Source: Desulfobacteraceae bacterium
Lineage (GTDB): Bacteria; Desulfobacterota; Desulfobacteria; Desulfobacterales; Desulfosarcinaceae
Direction: 5' to 3'
Assembly (NCBI GenBank): GCA_013003715.1
Contig: JABDIN010000056.1
Span: 1-64,000, forward strand
DNA length: 64,000 nucleotides
Each line of letters opens with the position of its first letter. Position 1 is the first letter of the stretch. The translations under genes and the position numbers were made by a program. Below, in pieces: positions 1 through 30,981 of this stretch. Below the pieces are notes generated by a model, which searched no databases, was not told the DNA's origin, and saw only the letters and a list, made by a program, of their open reading frames with translations.

Positions 1-1361
1 TCGGCGGGGGCACCCGGTTGCCGACCCAAAAAGAGGCGCTGTCCATCCTGGGATGTGAGGGCCAGGGCAAGGTGTTCCGTTTGGCGGAAATCATTGCCGC
101 CGCATGCCTGGCACTGGATATCTCCACCGGTTCGGCCATCACCGCCAATGAGTTTGTCCGTGCCCATGAGCAACTCGGCCGGAACCGTCCGGGAAAACGC
201 CTGGCCTGGTCGGATATCGACAGCTCATTTTTCAACACGCTTTTTGAGGATGCCGATGTGACCGTAAGCAAGACGTCCCGGTATGACCTGGATACGGCAG
301 GCGCGGTGGTATCGGACGTGGTCCGGAAAAACAGCCGGGAGATCACTGGTTTGTTCGGCTACCGGTTGACCCTCGTCAATGGCCCGAAAGACAATCCAAT
401 TGACACCGTCCTGAAGATAAAACCCGGCGATCGGGAATTGATCAACATCGGCGCACAAGTGGCGCGGTTGACAGGTGAGGACACCTTGAGCGGCCTTTAT
501 GAGGCGCAGTCACAGGTTTTTAACATCGACAACAGCAATGTGCGCGAAATCGCCTTTTACCGCGAAGCCGATCCGCGTTATAAACGATTCATACCCCGGA
601 TTCACGGCACCCGTATCGATCGTTCCCGCCGCATTTATGCCATATTGATGGAAAATCTTTCGTTTTGTTCTCATTTACATACGGTGGATACTCCTGAAGT
701 ATGGACAACCGGCCAGATAGAGTCTGTTTTAGCATCGCTGGCCGCCATGCATTCGGTATACTGGAACCGGTACGCGGATGTGCCGGAATCCATGCAGATC
801 AAGGCATTAAATACAACGGATGCGCTTCGGGCCGAGGATCTGCTGCGGGAACTCACCCGGTTCAACGCCTCACGATATCCGGAATTGATCAGCCCCGAAC
901 TCAGGGGTGTATTGGACAAAACCCTCTCCGGTCTGCCGGAATTCATCGGAGAGCTGGCCGGGCATCCCATGACCCTGACCCATAATGATTTCAACCCCCG
1001 GAATATCTGCCTTCGACCGACTTCAGACGGGTTGTCACCCGTGGTTTATGACTGGGAGCTTTCGTTTTTTCAAAATCCGCAGCACGATCTGATTGAATTT
1101 CTCATATTCATTCTTGATCCGTCTGAACAGGTGGATGCCGTTCGTCACTTTAGTGAGTTTTACACGAAGCATCTGAAAACCCATACCGGCGACGATTTCT
1201 CAAACAACGGATTCGATCGTGTATTGTGGCTCAATGCGGTTCATCTGGCCCTGTTTCGATTCAATCTTTATCTGCTGGGCCATAATATTCTCAAGTTCAC
1301 TTTTATCGAACGGGTTTACCGGAACCTGTCGAATTTCATCCTGTCCTGGGGGCAAGGATAA
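1..1361 (+). CDS. HMG-CoA reductase C-terminus fused to an APH/choline-kinase-like phosphotransferase (5' partial)
   Basis: The frame is open from base 3, so the gene begins before the window. Bases 3-191 encode the tail of a class I HMG-CoA reductase: a GGGTxLPTQ motif, the LGC turn, an AEIIAAACLALDIS helix and the closing RAHEQLGRNRP. HMG-CoA reductase makes mevalonate, the committed isoprenoid precursor. The same chain continues for about 390 residues as an aminoglycoside-phosphotransferase/ecdysteroid-kinase-like domain with an ATP-binding lysine (VLKIKP), a hinge-like ILMENL, the catalytic HNDFNPRN (HxDxxxxN, about 981-1004) and the metal-binding YDWE. The fusion is read directly from one uninterrupted frame. 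The kinase substrate is unknown; an isoprenoid alcohol or mevalonate is only a guess from context. The next gene starts 15 bases downstream, as in an operon. Confidence 0.85.
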   Translation, partial: GGGTRLPTQKEALSILGCEGQGKVFRLAEIIAAACLALDISTGSAITANEFVRAHEQLGRNRPGKRLAWSDIDSSFFNTLFEDADVTVSKTSRYDLDTAGAVVSDVVRKNSREITGLFGYRLTLVNGPKDNPIDTVLKIKPGDRELINIGAQVARLTGEDTLSGLYEAQSQVFNIDNSNVREIAFYREADPRYKRFIPRIHGTRIDRSRRIYAILMENLSFCSHLHTVDTPEVWTTGQIESVLASLAAMHSVYWNRYADVPESMQIKALNTTDALRAEDLLRELTRFNASRYPELISPELRGVLDKTLSGLPEFIGELAGHPMTLTHNDFNPRNICLRPTSDGLSPVVYDWELSFFQNPQHDLIEFLIFILDPSEQVDAVRHFSEFYTKHLKTHTGDDFSNNGFDRVLWLNAVHLALFRFNLYLLGHNILKFTFIERVYRNLSNFILSWGQG

Positions 1362-1376
1362 AAAAGGATCAATCGG

Positions 1377-3920
1377 ATGCCGGAAAACCACCATCGGAAT
1401 TACATCATTGGGTTATCGTCCCCGGATTCGATCATGGAACATCGTGTCGGGGCCAAGGCCGCGCGCCTGTCCCGAATGCTGGCGGCCGGATTCCCGGTGC
1501 CCGCCGGGTTTACGGTCACAAGCCATGCCTTTGATGTTTATTTACGTCACAATCGCCTGGACCGGAACCTTATGGCGATAAACGCACCGGGCAGCGTTGA
1601 CGCCATCCGGAACGGCAGCTTCCCGGCGGACCTTCATAAAGCCGTTTCCGAGGCTATTAAGGACTTGTCCGCTTCTCAACTGGCTGTCAGGTCCTCGGGT
1701 GTCGGGGAAGATGGTGATGACCATTCCATGGCAGGTCAATTCGATTCTTTTTTACAGGTTGCCCCGGAAGCGGTGTTTGAGAAAATCAAGGAATGCTGGG
1801 CCGGCCTTTTCGGGAGCGCGCCCACGGCCTATCGCCGGAAAATGGGAGCGGACGGTGACTTGCGCATGGGTGTCATCGTTCAGCAACTGGTGGATGCATC
1901 CATGGCCGGCGTGGTGTTCACCATGGACCCGCTGACAAAGTCCGCCGATCATTATGTGGTGGAATGGGTCGCCGGGTTGGGTGACCGGCTGGTTTCCGGC
2001 CAGGTGGAACCGGAAAGAATCTATCTGAGAAGAGAGAATCCGGAGATCCCCCATTCATTTCCGGATCATATTGCGCAAACACTCGGGTTGGTCCATCAAT
2101 GGGCCGGAAGGGCCGAAGCCCTGTTCGGCCATCTGGTGGATATGGAATGGGCTGCCGGTGATGCCGGATTCTTTGTTGTTCAATCCAGGCCCATAACACG
2201 GCTCAGCGGTGAGAACACGGCGGTGTGGACCAATGTCAATATGGCCGAAAACTTTCCCTATCCCTTGACGCCCATGGCCTGGTCCCTGGTGGACCGTTTT
2301 TATGCCGCCTATATCCGGTCGATTTTAGGTATCTTTGGCTGGTCCAAGGTTATCCTGGACCGGACCGCCCACGTGGTTGATAATCTCACCGGCCTGGTTT
2401 CCGGCCGTATCTACTACAACCTGGACAACTGGTACGCGGTGATGCACTTTTTCCCCCACAGCCGCTGGCTCATACGGTTTTTAAACCACTACATCGGCCA
2501 GAAAATACCCTACCGATACCAATCAACGCCCGGTGATCGACCCAAGGCGGGCCGGTTCAGGTTGATGTGGAACCGGATGGCGTTCTGGCCGCGATTGACG
2601 GCTGTATTTTTGTACACGGGGGCACGACTCAAAGCATTTGAACTATCATTTCTCCGGGAACGACGGCAATGGCGCCGGGTGCCTTATCGCCGTCAACCCG
2701 CAGCAAAGCTGGCATCCACACTTTCCCGAATGCTCAGTTTTGTCGAACGACGATGGGCACCGCCGGCCATGGCCGACATCCTGACCATGATTTTGCCCGG
2801 TGTGGTGGATATGCTGATTGAAAAATGGCTGAAAGAGAATCCGGAGACCATCTCCGTAAAATTGTTCGGCGGACTCGATCTCATCAGTATCCAGCCATCG
2901 GTGAAGATCTGGGAGGTGGCCCGGGAGATCAAAAAGAATCCCGGGTTATCGCGGCTTTTGGTTCGGGGTGAATATGAGGCATTGACAGCGGCAATGGATG
3001 ATGAACTGGTCAGGCGGGTCCGTGATTTCATGGACCGGTTCGGCGAACGCTGTTACCACGATTGCATGATCATCGCCCCCACCTTTACCGAAAAGCCCGC
3101 GTTGTTCTGGGACCTTGTCAAGCGCTTCATGGAAACCAACGCCCCCCACCCACTAAAAAATGTGGAAGTCAACGCGCAAGGGAGAGAGAATTTCACGACG
3201 GCATTGCTCGACCGGCTCGTACCGGTCAAACGAATCATATTCAGGCTGATACTGGCGCGGTCTCAACAGGCCCTGGCGCTTCGGGAGCGTGGCCGGCTCC
3301 TGCAGAGCTTTTTGTTTGGCGAAATGCGGGCGGTGGTGCTGGAATTGGGGCGGCGGTTGTCAACTTCAGGCCTGTTGCCCGATCCGGCGGATATATTCTA
3401 TCTGCACTTCAGCGAGATCGAACAACTGCTGTGGCACAAGTATTCCTGCCCCGAATCCGTACCGTCGCTGGTAACCCAAAGGCGGCATTCCATGGCGGCT
3501 TACGGACAAAACACGCCACCACAATTTTTATTTATGAATCGGGGAGAAATCGCCCGGTCCAGGCAGGGGGACAACCATGCCCCCCAGGATACCAGTATGA
3601 TGACCGGTACCGGCGTATCCCCTGGCGTCGTAAAAGCCAGGGCCCGCGTCATCCTCGATCCCATGGACGGCAATTCGCTGCAGGCCGGTGATATCCTCGT
3701 CACCTACGCCACTGATCCGGGATGGACGCCGCTGTTTTCCATCGCCGGGGGGCTGGTATTGGAACGGGGCGGCTTGTTGTCCCATGGCGCCATTGTCGCC
3801 CGGGAATTCGGAATCCCGGCCGTGGCCGGAGTGACCGATGCCACGCAATTGATCCGGGATGGAGACATGATCTCCATAGACGGGCACAAGGGGGCCGTCA
3901 CCGTGGAGGAAAAAACATGA
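1377..3920 (+). CDS. PEP synthase / rifampicin-phosphotransferase-like dikinase
   Basis: An 847-residue protein with a PPDK-type ATP-grasp domain at roughly residues 15-290 (AVRSSGVGEDG, QQLVDASMAGVVFTMDP, VQSRPITR), a helical middle domain, and a C-terminal swivelling PEP-utiliser domain carrying the phosphorylatable histidine in GGLLSHGAIVAREFGIPAV (His codon at 3783). This architecture and length match rifampicin phosphotransferase and PEP-synthase-like enzymes, which use ATP to make a phospho-His and move a phosphate to a substrate bound by the middle domain. The middle domain is not the PEP/pyruvate barrel, so true PEP synthase is unlikely. It lies inside a lipid operon and its stop overlaps the next start (ATGA), so a lipid or isoprenoid alcohol substrate is plausible but unproven. 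AAGGA before the ATG supports the start. Confidence 0.75.
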   Translation: MPENHHRNYIIGLSSPDSIMEHRVGAKAARLSRMLAAGFPVPAGFTVTSHAFDVYLRHNRLDRNLMAINAPGSVDAIRNGSFPADLHKAVSEAIKDLSASQLAVRSSGVGEDGDDHSMAGQFDSFLQVAPEAVFEKIKECWAGLFGSAPTAYRRKMGADGDLRMGVIVQQLVDASMAGVVFTMDPLTKSADHYVVEWVAGLGDRLVSGQVEPERIYLRRENPEIPHSFPDHIAQTLGLVHQWAGRAEALFGHLVDMEWAAGDAGFFVVQSRPITRLSGENTAVWTNVNMAENFPYPLTPMAWSLVDRFYAAYIRSILGIFGWSKVILDRTAHVVDNLTGLVSGRIYYNLDNWYAVMHFFPHSRWLIRFLNHYIGQKIPYRYQSTPGDRPKAGRFRLMWNRMAFWPRLTAVFLYTGARLKAFELSFLRERRQWRRVPYRRQPAAKLASTLSRMLSFVERRWAPPAMADILTMILPGVVDMLIEKWLKENPETISVKLFGGLDLISIQPSVKIWEVAREIKKNPGLSRLLVRGEYEALTAAMDDELVRRVRDFMDRFGERCYHDCMIIAPTFTEKPALFWDLVKRFMETNAPHPLKNVEVNAQGRENFTTALLDRLVPVKRIIFRLILARSQQALALRERGRLLQSFLFGEMRAVVLELGRRLSTSGLLPDPADIFYLHFSEIEQLLWHKYSCPESVPSLVTQRRHSMAAYGQNTPPQFLFMNRGEIARSRQGDNHAPQDTSMMTGTGVSPGVVKARARVILDPMDGNSLQAGDILVTYATDPGWTPLFSIAGGLVLERGGLLSHGAIVAREFGIPAVAGVTDATQLIRDGDMISIDGHKGAVTVEEKT

Positions 3921-4756
3921 TTTCTCTCCGGGAAAATACCTGCCGTTATCTGCGGGAGCGATGCCCCCTGCCGGTCATGGGCCTGATGGCGGTGATGCTG
4001 AACACTGCACCGGCCATGATTTCCAACCTTCCGTGGGTGACGGCGGTCAGACATGGCCTGAGCATATTCATCGGTCTGATTATGTTGCGTATGGTCGACG
4101 ATCTTGCTGATCTGCCCGTGGACCGTCTCAAGCATCCCGGGCGCGGTCTCGTGACCGGTGAAATTCAAAAGGAACTCTTGCGGCGGGTCGCCATGGCCGG
4201 TATAGTTCTCCTTTTACTGTTGAATCCGGATCTCGTTCACATCGCCGGGTTCGTGGGCATCGGTATTTTTTATGGTGCCTTTTATAAATTTAAAAAATAT
4301 ATCCCCATCTGGTGGCACCCCCTGATGGTGAATATTATATTTATGCTTATTCCGGTCTACGCCGGGGGAACTATGTCCCGGCCTTTCGTGTATTTGGCCG
4401 TTTTTGTCTGGTTGGGTGCGGTTGCCCATGATTTCGCTCACAGCGCACACGACTTCAACGGGGGAGAACAAGACCCTGTTGGATCCCTGGGCCGGACCGC
4501 TTCGCGCCGGGCGGCGCTTCTCGGTGTCTCCGGTTTTGGGATAGCTTCTGTTGCAGGGCTGATATTCTGGATCGACAGCGGTCGTCCATGGGGGTTTTTG
4601 TTCACTTTAGCCTTGATGTGCGTGGTCATCCTGAGACCGGCCGTACGGTTGGTCCGGCAACCCGATGCTCAAAACGCAGGGCTGTTCTATGTCCGGGGCT
4701 TCCTCTTTTTTTTAATGCCCATGGCGGGGCTGATCGTCGATCAACTATTGCCGTAA
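3917..4756 (+). CDS. UbiA-family prenyltransferase (candidate digeranylgeranylglyceryl phosphate synthase type)
   Basis: A 279-residue polytopic membrane protein with both Asp-rich UbiA motifs: DDLADLPVDR (DDxxDxxxD) followed by a HPGRGLVTGE stretch, and HDFNGGEQDPVGSLG late in the chain. UbiA enzymes move a prenyl chain from prenyl diphosphate to an acceptor. In archaeal lipid synthesis the acceptor is geranylgeranylglyceryl phosphate. The ATG at 3917 overlaps the stop of the upstream gene and has GAGG before it; upstream extensions of the frame lie inside that gene and were discarded. Neighbouring CDP-archaeol-synthase-like, PS-synthase and PS-decarboxylase genes favour a lipid rather than a quinone role, but the acceptor is not shown by sequence. 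Confidence 0.8.
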   Translation: MISLRENTCRYLRERCPLPVMGLMAVMLNTAPAMISNLPWVTAVRHGLSIFIGLIMLRMVDDLADLPVDRLKHPGRGLVTGEIQKELLRRVAMAGIVLLLLLNPDLVHIAGFVGIGIFYGAFYKFKKYIPIWWHPLMVNIIFMLIPVYAGGTMSRPFVYLAVFVWLGAVAHDFAHSAHDFNGGEQDPVGSLGRTASRRAALLGVSGFGIASVAGLIFWIDSGRPWGFLFTLALMCVVILRPAVRLVRQPDAQNAGLFYVRGFLFFLMPMAGLIVDQLLP

Positions 4757-4770
4757 TTGAGTGATTACCC

Positions 4771-5376
4771 ATGATCATCGGAATTTATAACCGGGCCGGG
4801 GCCGTAACCTTCTCCGGTCTCCTCTTGGCCGTTGCCGCCTGTATCCTTTCATTTCAGCAGCATGTTAACTGGGCCGTCATCTGCTTGATGTCGGCCGGGA
4901 TTTGTGATTTGTTCGACGGCTGGATCGCCCGCCGGATGAACATGACCCCTGCGGAAAAAACTTTCGGACTCCACATCGATTCGCTCGTGGATATGGCGGC
5001 GTTCGGACTGACACCCGCCATCATTTTGCTTCATGTCGGCTTTTCCGGATGGATCGACGGGCTGTTGTTTGGCCTTTACGGGTGCTGCGCTGCCATGCGC
5101 CTGGCCGTGTTCAATCAAAACAGCATGGCGCCTCAGCAGGTTCGACAGGGATATACCGGTTTGCCGGTAACCTATGCAGCGCTCATTTTTCCGGTGGTCC
5201 TGTTGCTTGAAAAATGGCTCTCCGCCGGCGCTTTTACCGGTATTGTCCGGGCCACTGTACTGGTGGTGGCCGTGGGCTTTGTGTTGAAAATACCCATCCC
5301 CAAGCCGCGGGGGGGCGCCTATGGTTTTTTCGTTTTGCTTTTTTTGGCACTAACTATTCTCTGGTCGAGGAACTGA
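4771..5376 (+). CDS. pssA: CDP-alcohol phosphatidyltransferase, phosphatidylserine/archaetidylserine synthase type
   Basis: A 201-residue membrane protein with the CDP-alcohol transferase signature DGWIAR...GLHIDSLVD (DGxxAR...GxxxDxxxD). The spacing between the two halves and the FGLHIDSLVDMAAFG stretch resemble type II phosphatidylserine synthases. These use CDP-diacylglycerol or CDP-archaeol plus L-serine. A decarboxylase begins one base after the stop, so the expected product is an ethanolamine lipid. Six or so hydrophobic helices follow the motif. Whether the lipid backbone is diacyl or diether cannot be read from this protein alone. Confidence 0.85.
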   Translation: MIIGIYNRAGAVTFSGLLLAVAACILSFQQHVNWAVICLMSAGICDLFDGWIARRMNMTPAEKTFGLHIDSLVDMAAFGLTPAIILLHVGFSGWIDGLLFGLYGCCAAMRLAVFNQNSMAPQQVRQGYTGLPVTYAALIFPVVLLLEKWLSAGAFTGIVRATVLVVAVGFVLKIPIPKPRGGAYGFFVLLFLALTILWSRN

Positions 5377-5377
5377 G

Positions 5378-6304
5378 ATGGATCCCCTTGTGAACACCCC
5401 ACCGGTTAAAGCGCCGGTTCAACTCTATAATCGACAAACCGGCAGCCTGGAAAATGAAAGCATCATGGCCCGGCAATTCATGGATCTATCATATGGTAGC
5501 CGGCTCGGCCGCTTCCTCACCGACCATATATTGACCCGCCGGTGTTTATCCGGGCTATATGGCCTGTGGCAGCGGCATCCCGTCAGCCGGTCGAAAATCC
5601 GCGGATTCATAAACGAGTTTGATATCGATATGGGTGAGGTTCAAGTCCCGGAAAATGGATTCACCTGTTTCAATGATTTCTTTATCCGTCGCCTGAAACC
5701 GGATGCACGGCCGGTGGACCGGGAACCGGGCCTGCTGATCTCACCGGCGGACGGCCGGGTCAAGATTTTTGACATTGGAAAGCATACGCGCCTTGACATC
5801 AAAGGCAGCGACATGCGCCTGGATGAAATTGTGGATGCCGGAGCGGTAACCCGGAATTTTGAAGGCGGGCTTGGTGTTCAAGTCCGCCTTGCCCCCGTGG
5901 ATTACCACCGATTCGGGTATATTGATGATGGTAACCAGGGTCCCATCCACAGCATCGACGGACGGCTGTTCTCTGTCAGCCCCGTTGCCCTTCGGGTCCG
6001 CCCCCGGATATGGGCCCGGAATTATCGCCATTGGTGCGAACTGAAGACCAGGACATTCGGCCCGGTCCTCCAGGCGGAAATCGGCGCCATGATCGTCGGC
6101 AGCATCATCCAGCACAAGCCCGCCGGCGGCCCTTGCAAAAGAGGAGAAGAAAAAGGCTATTTCGCCCTGGGCGGATCCACCGTCCTGATGTTTTTTAAAA
6201 AAGGCGCCGTTCGAATGGACCCCGATATCGCCCGTTATTCGGTGCAGGGCATTGAGACCCTGGTCAAATACGGTGAGGCCATCGGCATTCAAGGTATCGC
6301 ATGA
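5378..6304 (+). CDS. psd: Phosphatidylserine (or archaetidylserine) decarboxylase proenzyme
   Basis: A 308-residue protein of the Psd family. The self-cleavage site that gives the pyruvoyl prosthetic group is present as FALGGSTVLMFF near residue 265 (the Ser of GGST becomes the pyruvoyl). Other hallmarks are SPADGRV, NDFFIRRLKP near the middle and the conserved LAPVDYHRFGY. It converts the serine headgroup to ethanolamine at the membrane. It starts one base after the PS-synthase stop and ends overlapping the next ATG. The start at 5378 follows GAACTGAG; a later start at the in-frame Met around residue 30 is possible. Confidence 0.92.
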   Translation: MDPLVNTPPVKAPVQLYNRQTGSLENESIMARQFMDLSYGSRLGRFLTDHILTRRCLSGLYGLWQRHPVSRSKIRGFINEFDIDMGEVQVPENGFTCFNDFFIRRLKPDARPVDREPGLLISPADGRVKIFDIGKHTRLDIKGSDMRLDEIVDAGAVTRNFEGGLGVQVRLAPVDYHRFGYIDDGNQGPIHSIDGRLFSVSPVALRVRPRIWARNYRHWCELKTRTFGPVLQAEIGAMIVGSIIQHKPAGGPCKRGEEKGYFALGGSTVLMFFKKGAVRMDPDIARYSVQGIETLVKYGEAIGIQGIA

Positions 6305-6891
6305 GTGAAATCGCGCAGCTCGCCTGGTTTTTATCTCCAGTCATATTGGGTGGTGTCTCCAATATGATCTGGGTCAAACTTCCCCTGGTCCGGCATTTCA
6401 ATGGTCCCATGGACGGCGGCAGGTGTTTTACGGACGGTAAACCCTTGCTGGGCGCGCACAAAACCTGGTTGGGATTTGGCGGTATGATCCTGTTGACGGC
6501 CATGTGGATGACCCTGTTTGTGTATATCACTTGCCGGCTGAATGTAGCGGATGTCCTGCAACTGGTGGATTACCGGCGCTGGATCTGGCCGTGGGAGGCT
6601 ATGGGCTACGGCGCCCTGTGGGGATTTGGATATGTGCTGTTCGAATTGCCGAACAGCTTCGTCAAAAGAAGATTGACCATTGCCCCGGGAAAATCAGGGG
6701 GCGGTTTCACCGGCTTGCTGTTCACCTTCATCGATCAGGCGGATTCGGTGGTCGGCTGCCTGATCTTCATGCTGTTTTTTTTCAAACCTTCGCTAAATCA
6801 GGTTGTCATTCTGTTTATCATGGGTACCGGTATCCACTATATCGTGAACATCCTCTTATACCTGGTGGGCCTTAAAAAACAGGCGGGATAG
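6301..6891 (+). CDS. carS: CDP-archaeol synthase-like CTP:lipid phosphate cytidylyltransferase (CarS/DUF46 family)
   Basis: A 196-residue membrane protein with CarS hallmarks: GPMDGGRCFTDGKPLLGAHKTW (a variant of PLDGG...DGR.ILG..KTW) early, and SFVKRRLTIAPG plus FTFIDQADSVVG late. The archaeal family activates unsaturated archaetidic acid with CTP to CDP-archaeol, the substrate for archaetidylserine synthase. It overlaps the decarboxylase by ATGA. Bacterial members of this family exist and their substrates are mostly untested, so activity on ordinary phosphatidic acid is possible. The surrounding HMG-CoA reductase and UbiA genes make the ether-lipid reading more attractive. Confidence 0.8.
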   Translation: MSEIAQLAWFLSPVILGGVSNMIWVKLPLVRHFNGPMDGGRCFTDGKPLLGAHKTWLGFGGMILLTAMWMTLFVYITCRLNVADVLQLVDYRRWIWPWEAMGYGALWGFGYVLFELPNSFVKRRLTIAPGKSGGGFTGLLFTFIDQADSVVGCLIFMLFFFKPSLNQVVILFIMGTGIHYIVNILLYLVGLKKQAG

Positions 6892-29921: not shown

Positions 29922-30024
29922 CCTCTCGAATCGGTTCATGTTAATGTGCCGCGATCGTGTCCACAGCCCGGAATTGTCGAAAAATCTGTGGTTTGCACAT
30001 CGTTGCACATTGCTGGTGATCCGA

Positions 30025-30981
30025 ATGGACAAGAAGCACCCTCACGGCTGCCCCATGGAAATACAACCGAATACATTATCCAAAATCAAATTGTTCTGGG
30101 CACTTTCCCGCACACCCCATGGCATTGTGGACCTTGCCGCTCCGGCGCTGGCCGCGTTGCTGTGCATCGGAGAGTTTCCACCTCTTCGGGTGATGATACT
30201 GGGGTGTATTACCGCTTTTGCCGGCTATACAGCGGTTTATGCACTTAATGACCTGGTGGATTACCGGACGGACCGGGAAAAAGCGGCGGCAGGGGGTTAC
30301 GGGGATGAAGGCGGGTACATTGACAGTGTCTGGGTCCGCCATCCCCTGGCCAAGGGGGTTCTGGGGTTTTACGAAGGACTTGTCTGGGCAGTGGCCTGGG
30401 CGGTGGTGGCCATGGTGGGCGCCTTTCTTCTCAATCCGGTGTGCTTGTACATATTTCTGGGTGGGTGCGGACTGGAGGCGGTGTATTGTCTGTTGTGGAA
30501 AATCAGTCCGTTTCGGGCCGTTATCAACGGCATTGTCAAGACCTGTGGTGCGGCGGCAGCGATTTATGCCGTGAATCCGTCTCCATCCCTCGTGTTTTTA
30601 CTCGTCACAATCCTTTGGATTTTCTTCTGGGAAATCGGTGGACAGAATATACCCAATGACTGGACGGATTTGGAGGAGGACCGGAAATTCAAGGCGCAGA
30701 CCATTCCCGTTCGGTTCGGTCTGCCGGCGGCATCTCTGATCCTGACCCTCTCGCTGGTCATCTCTTTCCTGCTGAACCAGGTTCTGTTCGTCGTCTCCAA
30801 TGTGGACTTCGCCCCATATCATTATCTGGCCGCCGCCATCGTCAGCGCCTGGCTGTTGTTGATTCCCGCCGTTAGCTTATACAATACCGGAAGCCGTGAA
30901 AAAGCCATGGCGCTGTTCAACCGGGCCAGCTACTACCCGCTGGCAATGCTGATCCTGGTATTGTCCCGGATATTGTGCTAG
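30025..30981 (+). CDS. ubiA: UbiA-family prenyltransferase, 4-hydroxybenzoate prenyltransferase-like
   Basis: A membrane prenyltransferase of about 318 residues with NDLVDYRTDR (NDxxDxxxD) and NDWTDLEEDRKFKAQTIPVRFG, the second motif resembling quinone-ring prenyltransferases. Starts at 29938 or 30055 are also possible; none has a strong ribosome site. It converges on ubiE and ubiG, which suggests attachment of the polyprenyl tail to a benzoquinone precursor. A heme O synthase (CtaB) role is less likely because the CtaB-specific motifs are not evident. Confidence 0.8.
   Translation: MDKKHPHGCPMEIQPNTLSKIKLFWALSRTPHGIVDLAAPALAALLCIGEFPPLRVMILGCITAFAGYTAVYALNDLVDYRTDREKAAAGGYGDEGGYIDSVWVRHPLAKGVLGFYEGLVWAVAWAVVAMVGAFLLNPVCLYIFLGGCGLEAVYCLLWKISPFRAVINGIVKTCGAAAAIYAVNPSPSLVFLLVTILWIFFWEIGGQNIPNDWTDLEEDRKFKAQTIPVRFGLPAASLILTLSLVISFLLNQVLFVVSNVDFAPYHYLAAAIVSAWLLLIPAVSLYNTGSREKAMALFNRASYYPLAMLILVLSRILC

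Follow-up and report, generated by a model that had tools for sequence, protein, structure and literature searches.

A six-gene operon at the end of a contig

We analyzed a 64,000-nucleotide stretch of DNA (the window) from a Desulfobacteraceae bacterium (GCA_013003715.1, contig JABDIN010000056.1, positions 1 to 64,000), which opens with an operon that joins a reductase-kinase fusion to phospholipid-type genes. An earlier note on this DNA had described six packed plus-strand genes, and this description is borne out: six plus-strand genes occupy 3-6891 with intergenic gaps of -4 to +15 bp, and Pfam is in agreement at the family level. The genes are as follows:

3..1361, plus strand: C-terminal part of a putative FcrA-type fatty acyl-CoA reductase (residues 1-60) followed by an EcKL/APH-type small-molecule kinase (PF00368, PF02958, PF01636); 5′ end cut by the contig end
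1377..3920, plus strand: phosphoenolpyruvate (PEP) synthase/pyruvate phosphate dikinase (PPDK)-like phosphotransferase, 847 aa (PF01326, PF00391)
3917..4756, plus strand: UbiA-superfamily membrane transferase (PF01040)
4771..5376, plus strand: CDP-alcohol phosphatidyltransferase of the phosphatidylserine/archaetidylserine synthase (PSS) type (PF01066)
5378..6304, plus strand: pyruvoyl enzyme of the phosphatidylserine decarboxylase (PSD) type (PF02666)
6301..6891, plus strand: CarS-like CTP-dependent lipid-phosphate cytidylyltransferase (PF01864)

The UbiA start at 3917 was chosen by us; the mechanically called open reading frame (ORF) is longer. Window position 1 is the first base of contig C73 (G000:C73:1), so the first gene is truncated at its 5′ end. 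Its N-terminal half (375 residues) forms the end of a 3,603-bp contig of the same genome, C28 (G000:C28:2477-3603), and 75 profile positions (234-308) between the two pieces are absent from the assembly. Relatives of this gene encode reductase-kinase fusions of about 900 residues. Because a divergent sensor-regulator pair, named by eye, lies upstream on C28, the operon appears to begin with the reductase-kinase gene.

Reductase residues point to a fatty acyl-CoA reductase

The earlier note had called the first gene 3-hydroxy-3-methylglutaryl-CoA (HMG-CoA) reductase, a mevalonate enzyme. That label is right for the Pfam family only. The window holds the 3′ end of the reductase-kinase fusion gene, with just the last 60 residues of the reductase domain (PF00368, 60.4 bits). 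We examined the domain in an alignment of 18 reductases from other loci, the two pieces of our own protein, and archaeal and plant HMG-CoA reductase references. The alignment covers part of the reductases found, and two of its rows (L042 and L044) are close kin. Residue positions follow human HMG-CoA reductase numbering, and the class II HMG-CoA reductase at locus L164 was excluded from the FcrA count.

The catalytic residues Glu559, Lys691, Asp767, and His866 are retained in every readable row (19, 19, 18, and 19, respectively). In our own protein, Glu and Lys lie on C28 and His866 in the window, and Asp falls in the contig gap. Arg590 is retained as well. None of the 18 readable relatives keeps Lys735, which forms a salt bridge to the HMG carboxylate (PMC9500038); they have Gly, Ala, or Ser instead, and our own site falls in the contig gap. 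Leu862 has become Phe (13 rows) or Trp (6 rows) in all 19 readable rows, the window residue being Phe. Ser684 has changed to Glu in 13 of 19 (our own, on C28, among them) and to Asp in one, and five keep Ser. The HMG-binding Ser684 and the Lys735 of the class I HMG-CoA reductase site were not found, with Glu at our own Ser684 position and Lys735 lost in every readable relative.

Changes at the places of Ser684, Lys735, and Leu862 are reported for FcrA, in which the Leu862 position is Trp in the characterized enzyme; according to the same report, FcrA converts long-chain acyl-CoA to fatty alcohol, is inactive on HMG-CoA, and is not inhibited by simvastatin (PMC11948995, which prints Lys795 where other papers and the present numbering give Lys735). 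An FcrA signature replaces the HMG site in this family, which points to an FcrA-type fatty acyl-CoA reductase. The five relatives scored are also below the cut-off of the curated HMG-CoA reductase model TIGR00533 (441.8 bits): L030 with 267.0, L050 with 297.6, L051 with 306.1, L171 with 355.9, and L167 with 370.0 bits. The window fragment yields 45.6 bits and is too short to be judged by this model. Mevalonate supply as a role for the fusion was rejected, given the lost HMG site and the absence of an HMG-CoA synthase match.

Since FcrA supplies fatty alcohols for wax esters (PMC11948995), the reductase might be thought to feed wax-ester or other neutral-lipid synthesis. We regard this as hardly credible, because a wax synthase model scored over its cut-off in one of 15 genomes (G269) and weakly in two, our own genome was unmatched, and the head-group genes of the operon would be without use.

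Stand-alone FcrA-like reductases of about 390 aa also occur in the class to which the window belongs (L167, L169, L170, L173, and L174). These have lost Lys735, carry Trp at Leu862, and keep Ser684. No cluster genes were seen near them, and a TetR-type-like regulator, named by eye, adjoins several. At L171 (8103-9695), an FcrA-like reductase lies near a PfaA-like polyketide/polyunsaturated fatty acid synthase, the latter also named by eye.

A kinase domain is fused to the reductase

The kinase domain of the first gene matches the EcKL and APH families (PF02958, 39.3 bits; PF01636, 29.1 bits). The window protein carries the motif HNDFNPRN...YDWE, and both HNDxxxRN and YDWE are kept in 11 of 11 proteins compared. 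Among 291 genomes of the class, the domain was matched in nine, seven strongly (E < 1e-30) and two weakly. In five of the seven strong matches, a single full open frame joins the domain to the reductase; the remaining two (our own and that in G262) are cut by contig ends. The earlier note had counted two unusual phosphotransferases. The PPDK-like protein is indeed a separate gene of this kind, and the other turns out to be the kinase fused to the reductase domain.

At L051, the reductase lacks a kinase domain and is adjoined by a 248-residue protein that had no match in Pfam, NCBIfam, or PDB searches and gave a poor structure model (predicted local distance difference test score [pLDDT], 47). 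This protein has what we take to be dolichol/phytol-kinase motifs, which we treat as no more than a lead.

Genes for archaeal-type isoprenoid lipids

The earlier note had interpreted the operon as a candidate route to an archaeal-type isoprenoid ether phospholipid, in which mevalonate supply and the formation of two ether bonds would lead to CDP-archaeol, archaetidylserine, and archaetidylethanolamine. That a single operon combines CarS-like, UbiA, archaetidylserine-synthase-like, and PSD genes is in keeping with this interpretation, which is partly supported by our results. The chain-building enzymes tell against it. Geranylgeranylglyceryl phosphate (GGGP) synthase, the first gene that the earlier note proposed to look for, had no match in our own genome (97% complete), whereas the same search matched 7 of 14 control genomes. 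Among the 14 further genomes with the cluster, one match was over the cut-off (G087) and two were below it (G298 and G291). The G087 candidate was rejected as a HisF-like protein (PF00977, 194.5 bits).

sn-Glycerol-1-phosphate (G1P) dehydrogenase likewise had no convincing match in our own genome when searched with an unspecific family model, the G1P dehydrogenase-specific model not having been run. The sole PF13685 match (54.0 bits) fits PF00465 better (160.2 bits) and was set aside as an iron alcohol dehydrogenase. As for other mevalonate genes, HMG-CoA synthase was unmatched in 12 of 13 cluster genomes, our own included, and the single match is in a streptococcus. DXR, of the methylerythritol phosphate pathway, was found in 14 of 15 genomes, again including our own.

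Placement of the CarS-like and UbiA proteins also departs from the archaeal interpretation, as both score far under the archaeal curated cut-offs and belong to a bacterial cluster family, in a tree built without archaeal rows. The UbiA protein scored 24.1 bits against NF009522, the model for the geranylgeranyltransferase acting on GGGP (digeranylgeranylglyceryl phosphate [DGGGP] synthase), where the cut-off is 353. Against the CDP-archaeol synthase model NF003114 (cut-off, 148 bits), the CarS-like proteins of the window, L027, and L108 scored 66.2, 77.8, and 77.0 bits. Together with the FcrA signature, these results make archaeal-type isoprenoid ether phospholipids very unlikely as the product. 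More generally, finding the annotations CarS, UbiA, PSS, and "HMG-CoA reductase" side by side in a bacterium does not establish that it makes archaeal lipids.

Head-group genes

The head-group portion of the operon stands up better. The CarS-like protein matches PF01864 (48.8 bits), its family profile matches the solved archaeal CarS structure 5guf (E = 2.9e-9), and its KTW and ELPNS motifs are invariant in the 10 proteins compared. The CDP-alcohol phosphatidyltransferase (PF01066, 50.2 bits) shows the superfamily motif DxxDGxxAR...GxxxDxxxD as CDLFDGWIAR...FGLHIDSLVD and remains under the cut-offs of TIGR04217 (73.2/200 bits) and pssA (68.2/107 bits). The decarboxylase (PF02666, 156.9 bits against a cut-off of 22) has the pyruvoyl self-cleavage site GGST, in FALGGST, and does not reach NF001941 (304.6/371 bits). 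The order of chemistry proposed in the earlier note, from CDP-archaeol through archaetidylserine to archaetidylethanolamine, is therefore retained for cytidylyl activation, serine transfer, and decarboxylation, and the isoprenoid chains are not.

The window decarboxylase is the sole PSD match in its genome, as would be expected if the operon held spare copies for ordinary phosphatidylethanolamine. Such a role appears unlikely overall. A CdsA-type match over the cut-off was found in 15 of 15 genomes, and our own lies outside the operon, beside dxr. A short-type PSD (open frame of 162-251 aa) is present elsewhere in 11 of the 14 other cluster genomes, and ordinary phosphatidylethanolamine needs no FcrA-kinase, PPDK, or UbiA.

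Archaetidylserine synthases serve archaeosortase systems, and the lipid could conceivably be one for C-terminal anchoring of surface proteins. The serine transferase bears a weak likeness to NF038086, a protein-sorting archaetidylserine synthase (38.8/200 bits). No sortase-type gene was noticed beside the clusters, where most neighbors are unannotated and no genome-wide search was made. We consider this role improbable.

The PPDK-like and UbiA proteins

A Pfam search of the 847-aa PPDK-like protein matched only the PPDK_N (PF01326, 187.9 bits) and PEP-utilizers (PF00391, 87.7 bits) domains; the C-terminal PEP-binding barrel was not detected. The catalytic, phospho-carrying swiveling His is retained in the motif alignment, in the motif LSHGAIVAREFGIP. 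The protein is under the cut-off of every NCBIfam model shown, including PEP synthase NF004881 (488.7/883 bits). RedH and PigC of prodigiosin synthesis are among its nearest models, and it falls far below both (358.9/1350 and 349.1/1300 bits). At L056, L076, and L094, a second PPDK-like protein of 521-546 aa appears, by eye and BLAST, to be without the ATP-binding part.

The UbiA protein (PF01040, 49.8 bits) retains the first Asp-rich motif (DDLADLPVD). The second is altered (HDFAHSAHD) and varies between cluster types. Another UbiA-type prenyltransferase-like protein, named by eye, is encoded away from the operon at 29938-30981 on the plus strand of the window.

The cluster is conserved in bacteria

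Scanning with five CarS-like proteins brought up 171 loci. We retained the 80 best, to which all locus counts refer. Within the available pieces, a PPDK-like gene was found at 78 loci, UbiA at 61, PSD at 59, PSS at 51, a GNAT-type acyltransferase at 48, and an AMP-binding enzyme at 29. An FcrA-type reductase was present at nine loci and an aminotransferase-reductase at six. These counts are lower bounds, owing to the shortness of many pieces and to genes overlooked by the simple ORF caller (CarS itself was called at 75 of 80 loci). As a control, the sigma-54 regulator neighboring the operon in the window was used as a query (E, 1e-5) and matched 0 of 80 loci. Because this gene set is found together again in other genomes and the control gene is not, the cluster is not due to chance.

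Sources of the loci include Desulfobacterales, Acidiferrobacterales, Pseudoalteromonas denitrificans, Undibacterium, Massilia, a spirochaete, Lachnospiraceae, Clostridium, Saccharibacteria, Streptococcus sanguinis, S. gordonii, and S. cristatus. The CarS-like gene marks a conserved bacterial cluster whose front ends vary by lineage while most of the CarS-PPDK-UbiA-PSS-PSD core is kept.

A bacterial CarS tree was built from 42 hand-picked loci of the 80, the window, and two distant loci; its label "none" marks only that the available piece shows no front-end gene. L037 is the partner of the window in this tree (97/98). Reductase-type clusters are grouped beyond chance (4 changes, with 0 of 500 shuffles as low), yet do not form one clade, and the aminotransferase type is not clearly grouped (3 changes, 48 of 500 shuffles).

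A proposed route from fatty alcohol to phospholipid

Taking together the gene set, catalytic motifs, FcrA signature, and co-occurrence, all of which can be read from the DNA, we propose that the operon probably makes a dedicated membrane phospholipid from fatty alcohol and not an isoprenoid, archaeal one. The FcrA-type reductase would convert acyl-CoA to fatty alcohol, an activity shown by others for FcrA, and the fused kinase, given the fusion and its intact motif, would convert the alcohol to alkyl phosphate. The PPDK-like and UbiA proteins are candidates for a second phosphorylation or activation and for attaching the chain, or else a prenyl chain, to another building block. The CarS-like protein would then use CTP to turn the lipid phosphate into CDP-lipid, the CDP-alcohol transferase would add serine to give lipid-phosphoserine, and the decarboxylase would produce lipid-phosphoethanolamine.

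Two more specific versions were considered. In one, the product would be a glycerol-free, single-chain alkyl-phosphoethanolamine: CarS would convert alkyl phosphate directly to CDP-alkyl, after which serine is added and decarboxylated. The union of reductase and kinase in one protein and the PEMT/ICMT-type methyltransferase present in one variant cluster are consistent with this version, but it leaves no role for UbiA and PPDK, although few partner genes are as widely conserved as these two (61 and 78 of 80 loci), and we consider it possible though doubtful. In the other, the operon would be a fatty-alcohol version of the archaeal assembly line. FcrA would supply the alcohol, from which the fused kinase and PPDK would produce an alkyl diphosphate. 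UbiA would form an ether with this compound instead of geranylgeranyl diphosphate, and the lipid would be finished by CarS, the serine transferase, and the decarboxylase. This version gives each gene a step, yet we advance it only tentatively, as a bold reading, because UbiA would need a non-allylic alkyl diphosphate.

Several points weigh against the fatty-alcohol route. Our own Lys735 site falls in the gap between the two contigs, our own Leu862 change is to Phe whereas the characterized FcrA has Trp, and Ser684 is retained in 5 of 19 reductases, all of them stand-alone proteins. The proposal does not explain the roles of PPDK and UbiA, and we know of no UbiA enzyme with a non-allylic alkyl donor. 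The clostridial and streptococcal loci show no FcrA-type gene in the available pieces; therefore, the chain chemistry must differ there. The window decarboxylase, as the only PSD match in its genome, may also serve ordinary phosphatidylethanolamine. Finally, the cluster genome G262 carries a class II HMG-CoA reductase beside two GHMP-type kinase genes, named by eye. That locus (L164, G262:C115, from the order to which the window belongs) encodes a class II HMG-CoA reductase fusion behind the GHMP-type kinases, near carotenoid- and rhodopsin-like genes (by eye).

Relation to known systems

The reductase resembles FcrA, which has a class I HMG-CoA reductase fold (Grossi et al. 2025, PMC11948995), in keeping the catalytic residues, in replacing Leu862, and in the change of Ser684 to Glu, and its readable relatives also replace Lys735. 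It differs in being fused to a C-terminal kinase inside a phospholipid-type operon; the main text of that article never uses the terms kinase, phospholipid, or gene cluster, and its authors suggest an ether-lipid role for some FcrA proteins (PMC11948995).

With the archaeal ether-lipid pathway (CarS, DGGGP synthase, archaetidylserine synthase, and decarboxylase; PMC9385802), the operon shares the superfamilies of the second half and the order of head-group chemistry. Its genome, however, has no GGGP synthase match or convincing G1P dehydrogenase, its chain supply is apparently fatty acyl-CoA, and its CarS-like, UbiA, and serine transferase proteins are under the archaeal curated cut-offs. Archaeal-like lipid genes in bacteria are described for Ca. 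Cloacimonetes, where GGGP synthase and DGGGP synthase homologs are reported with CarS undetected (PMC7852524), whereas here CarS-like and UbiA genes occur without GGGP synthase.

Non-isoprenoid alkyl lipids are also associated with the bacterial alkyl ether lipid enzymes Ger and ElbD, in myxobacteria and a sulfate reducer (PMC11150832, PMC11948995), the alkyl ether lipids of the sulfate reducer being attributed to Ger (PMC11150832). Ger reduces a phospholipid ester bond to an ether and ElbD is one multifunctional protein; in the accounts of these systems examined here, neither is linked to CarS, UbiA, or PPDK (PMC11150832, PMC11948995). We found no description of the cluster among literature matches listed by title, a search whose scope did not extend to preprints and most subscription journals and which does not show absence from print.

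A cluster that apparently makes a phospholipid was seen in Desulfobacterota, Pseudomonadota, a spirochaete, clostridia, Saccharibacteria, and oral streptococci. If a distinct phospholipid is made, the known routes to membrane lipids would be widened, FcrA would have a role beyond wax esters, and there would be a lipid to seek in bacteria of the mouth and of the animal gut. The alkyl-diphosphate version, if true, would amount to a non-isoprenoid ether phospholipid made by archaeal logic, with a core common to clostridia, streptococci, and Saccharibacteria.

Variant clusters

For the aminotransferase-reductase of variant cluster L027, the best NCBIfam model is PigE, of prodigiosin synthesis, and the protein is far under its cut-off (335.5/850 bits). 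The variant-cluster acyltransferase has a tandem GNAT fold in its model (pLDDT, 87; best VIA-align match, 5kf2; Z, 19.8; root mean square deviation, 4.4; 287 aligned), and this predicted fold gives no substrate.

At L166 and L172, an FcrA-like reductase is clustered with DUF3419, UbiA, and a GNAT-like gene (by eye at L166), and L172 also has PPDK and an AMP-binding-type gene (by eye). CarS, PSS, and PSD had no match in the available pieces, and the 25 genomes in which a CarS-like protein was matched do not include those of these two loci (G269 and G212). The DUF3419 neighbors, which we take to be BtaA-like, together with the unmatched CarS, PSS, and PSD, suggest another head group. A faint PilZ match (E = 0.023) lies at the N terminus of the L166 reductase.

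The clusters at L030 and L031 (G152:C191 and G112:C166) are 99.95% identical over 8,530 bases in genomes of two families, which reflects either a recent transfer event or cross-binning of a contig. At L033 and L034, distant CarS-like proteins (about 30% identity) are paired with a radical SAM protein, the other cluster genes being unmatched in the available piece. At L066, from 4320 onward, a CarS-PSS-PSD cluster lies near a megasynthase with ketoacyl-synthase and acyltransferase Pfam domains.

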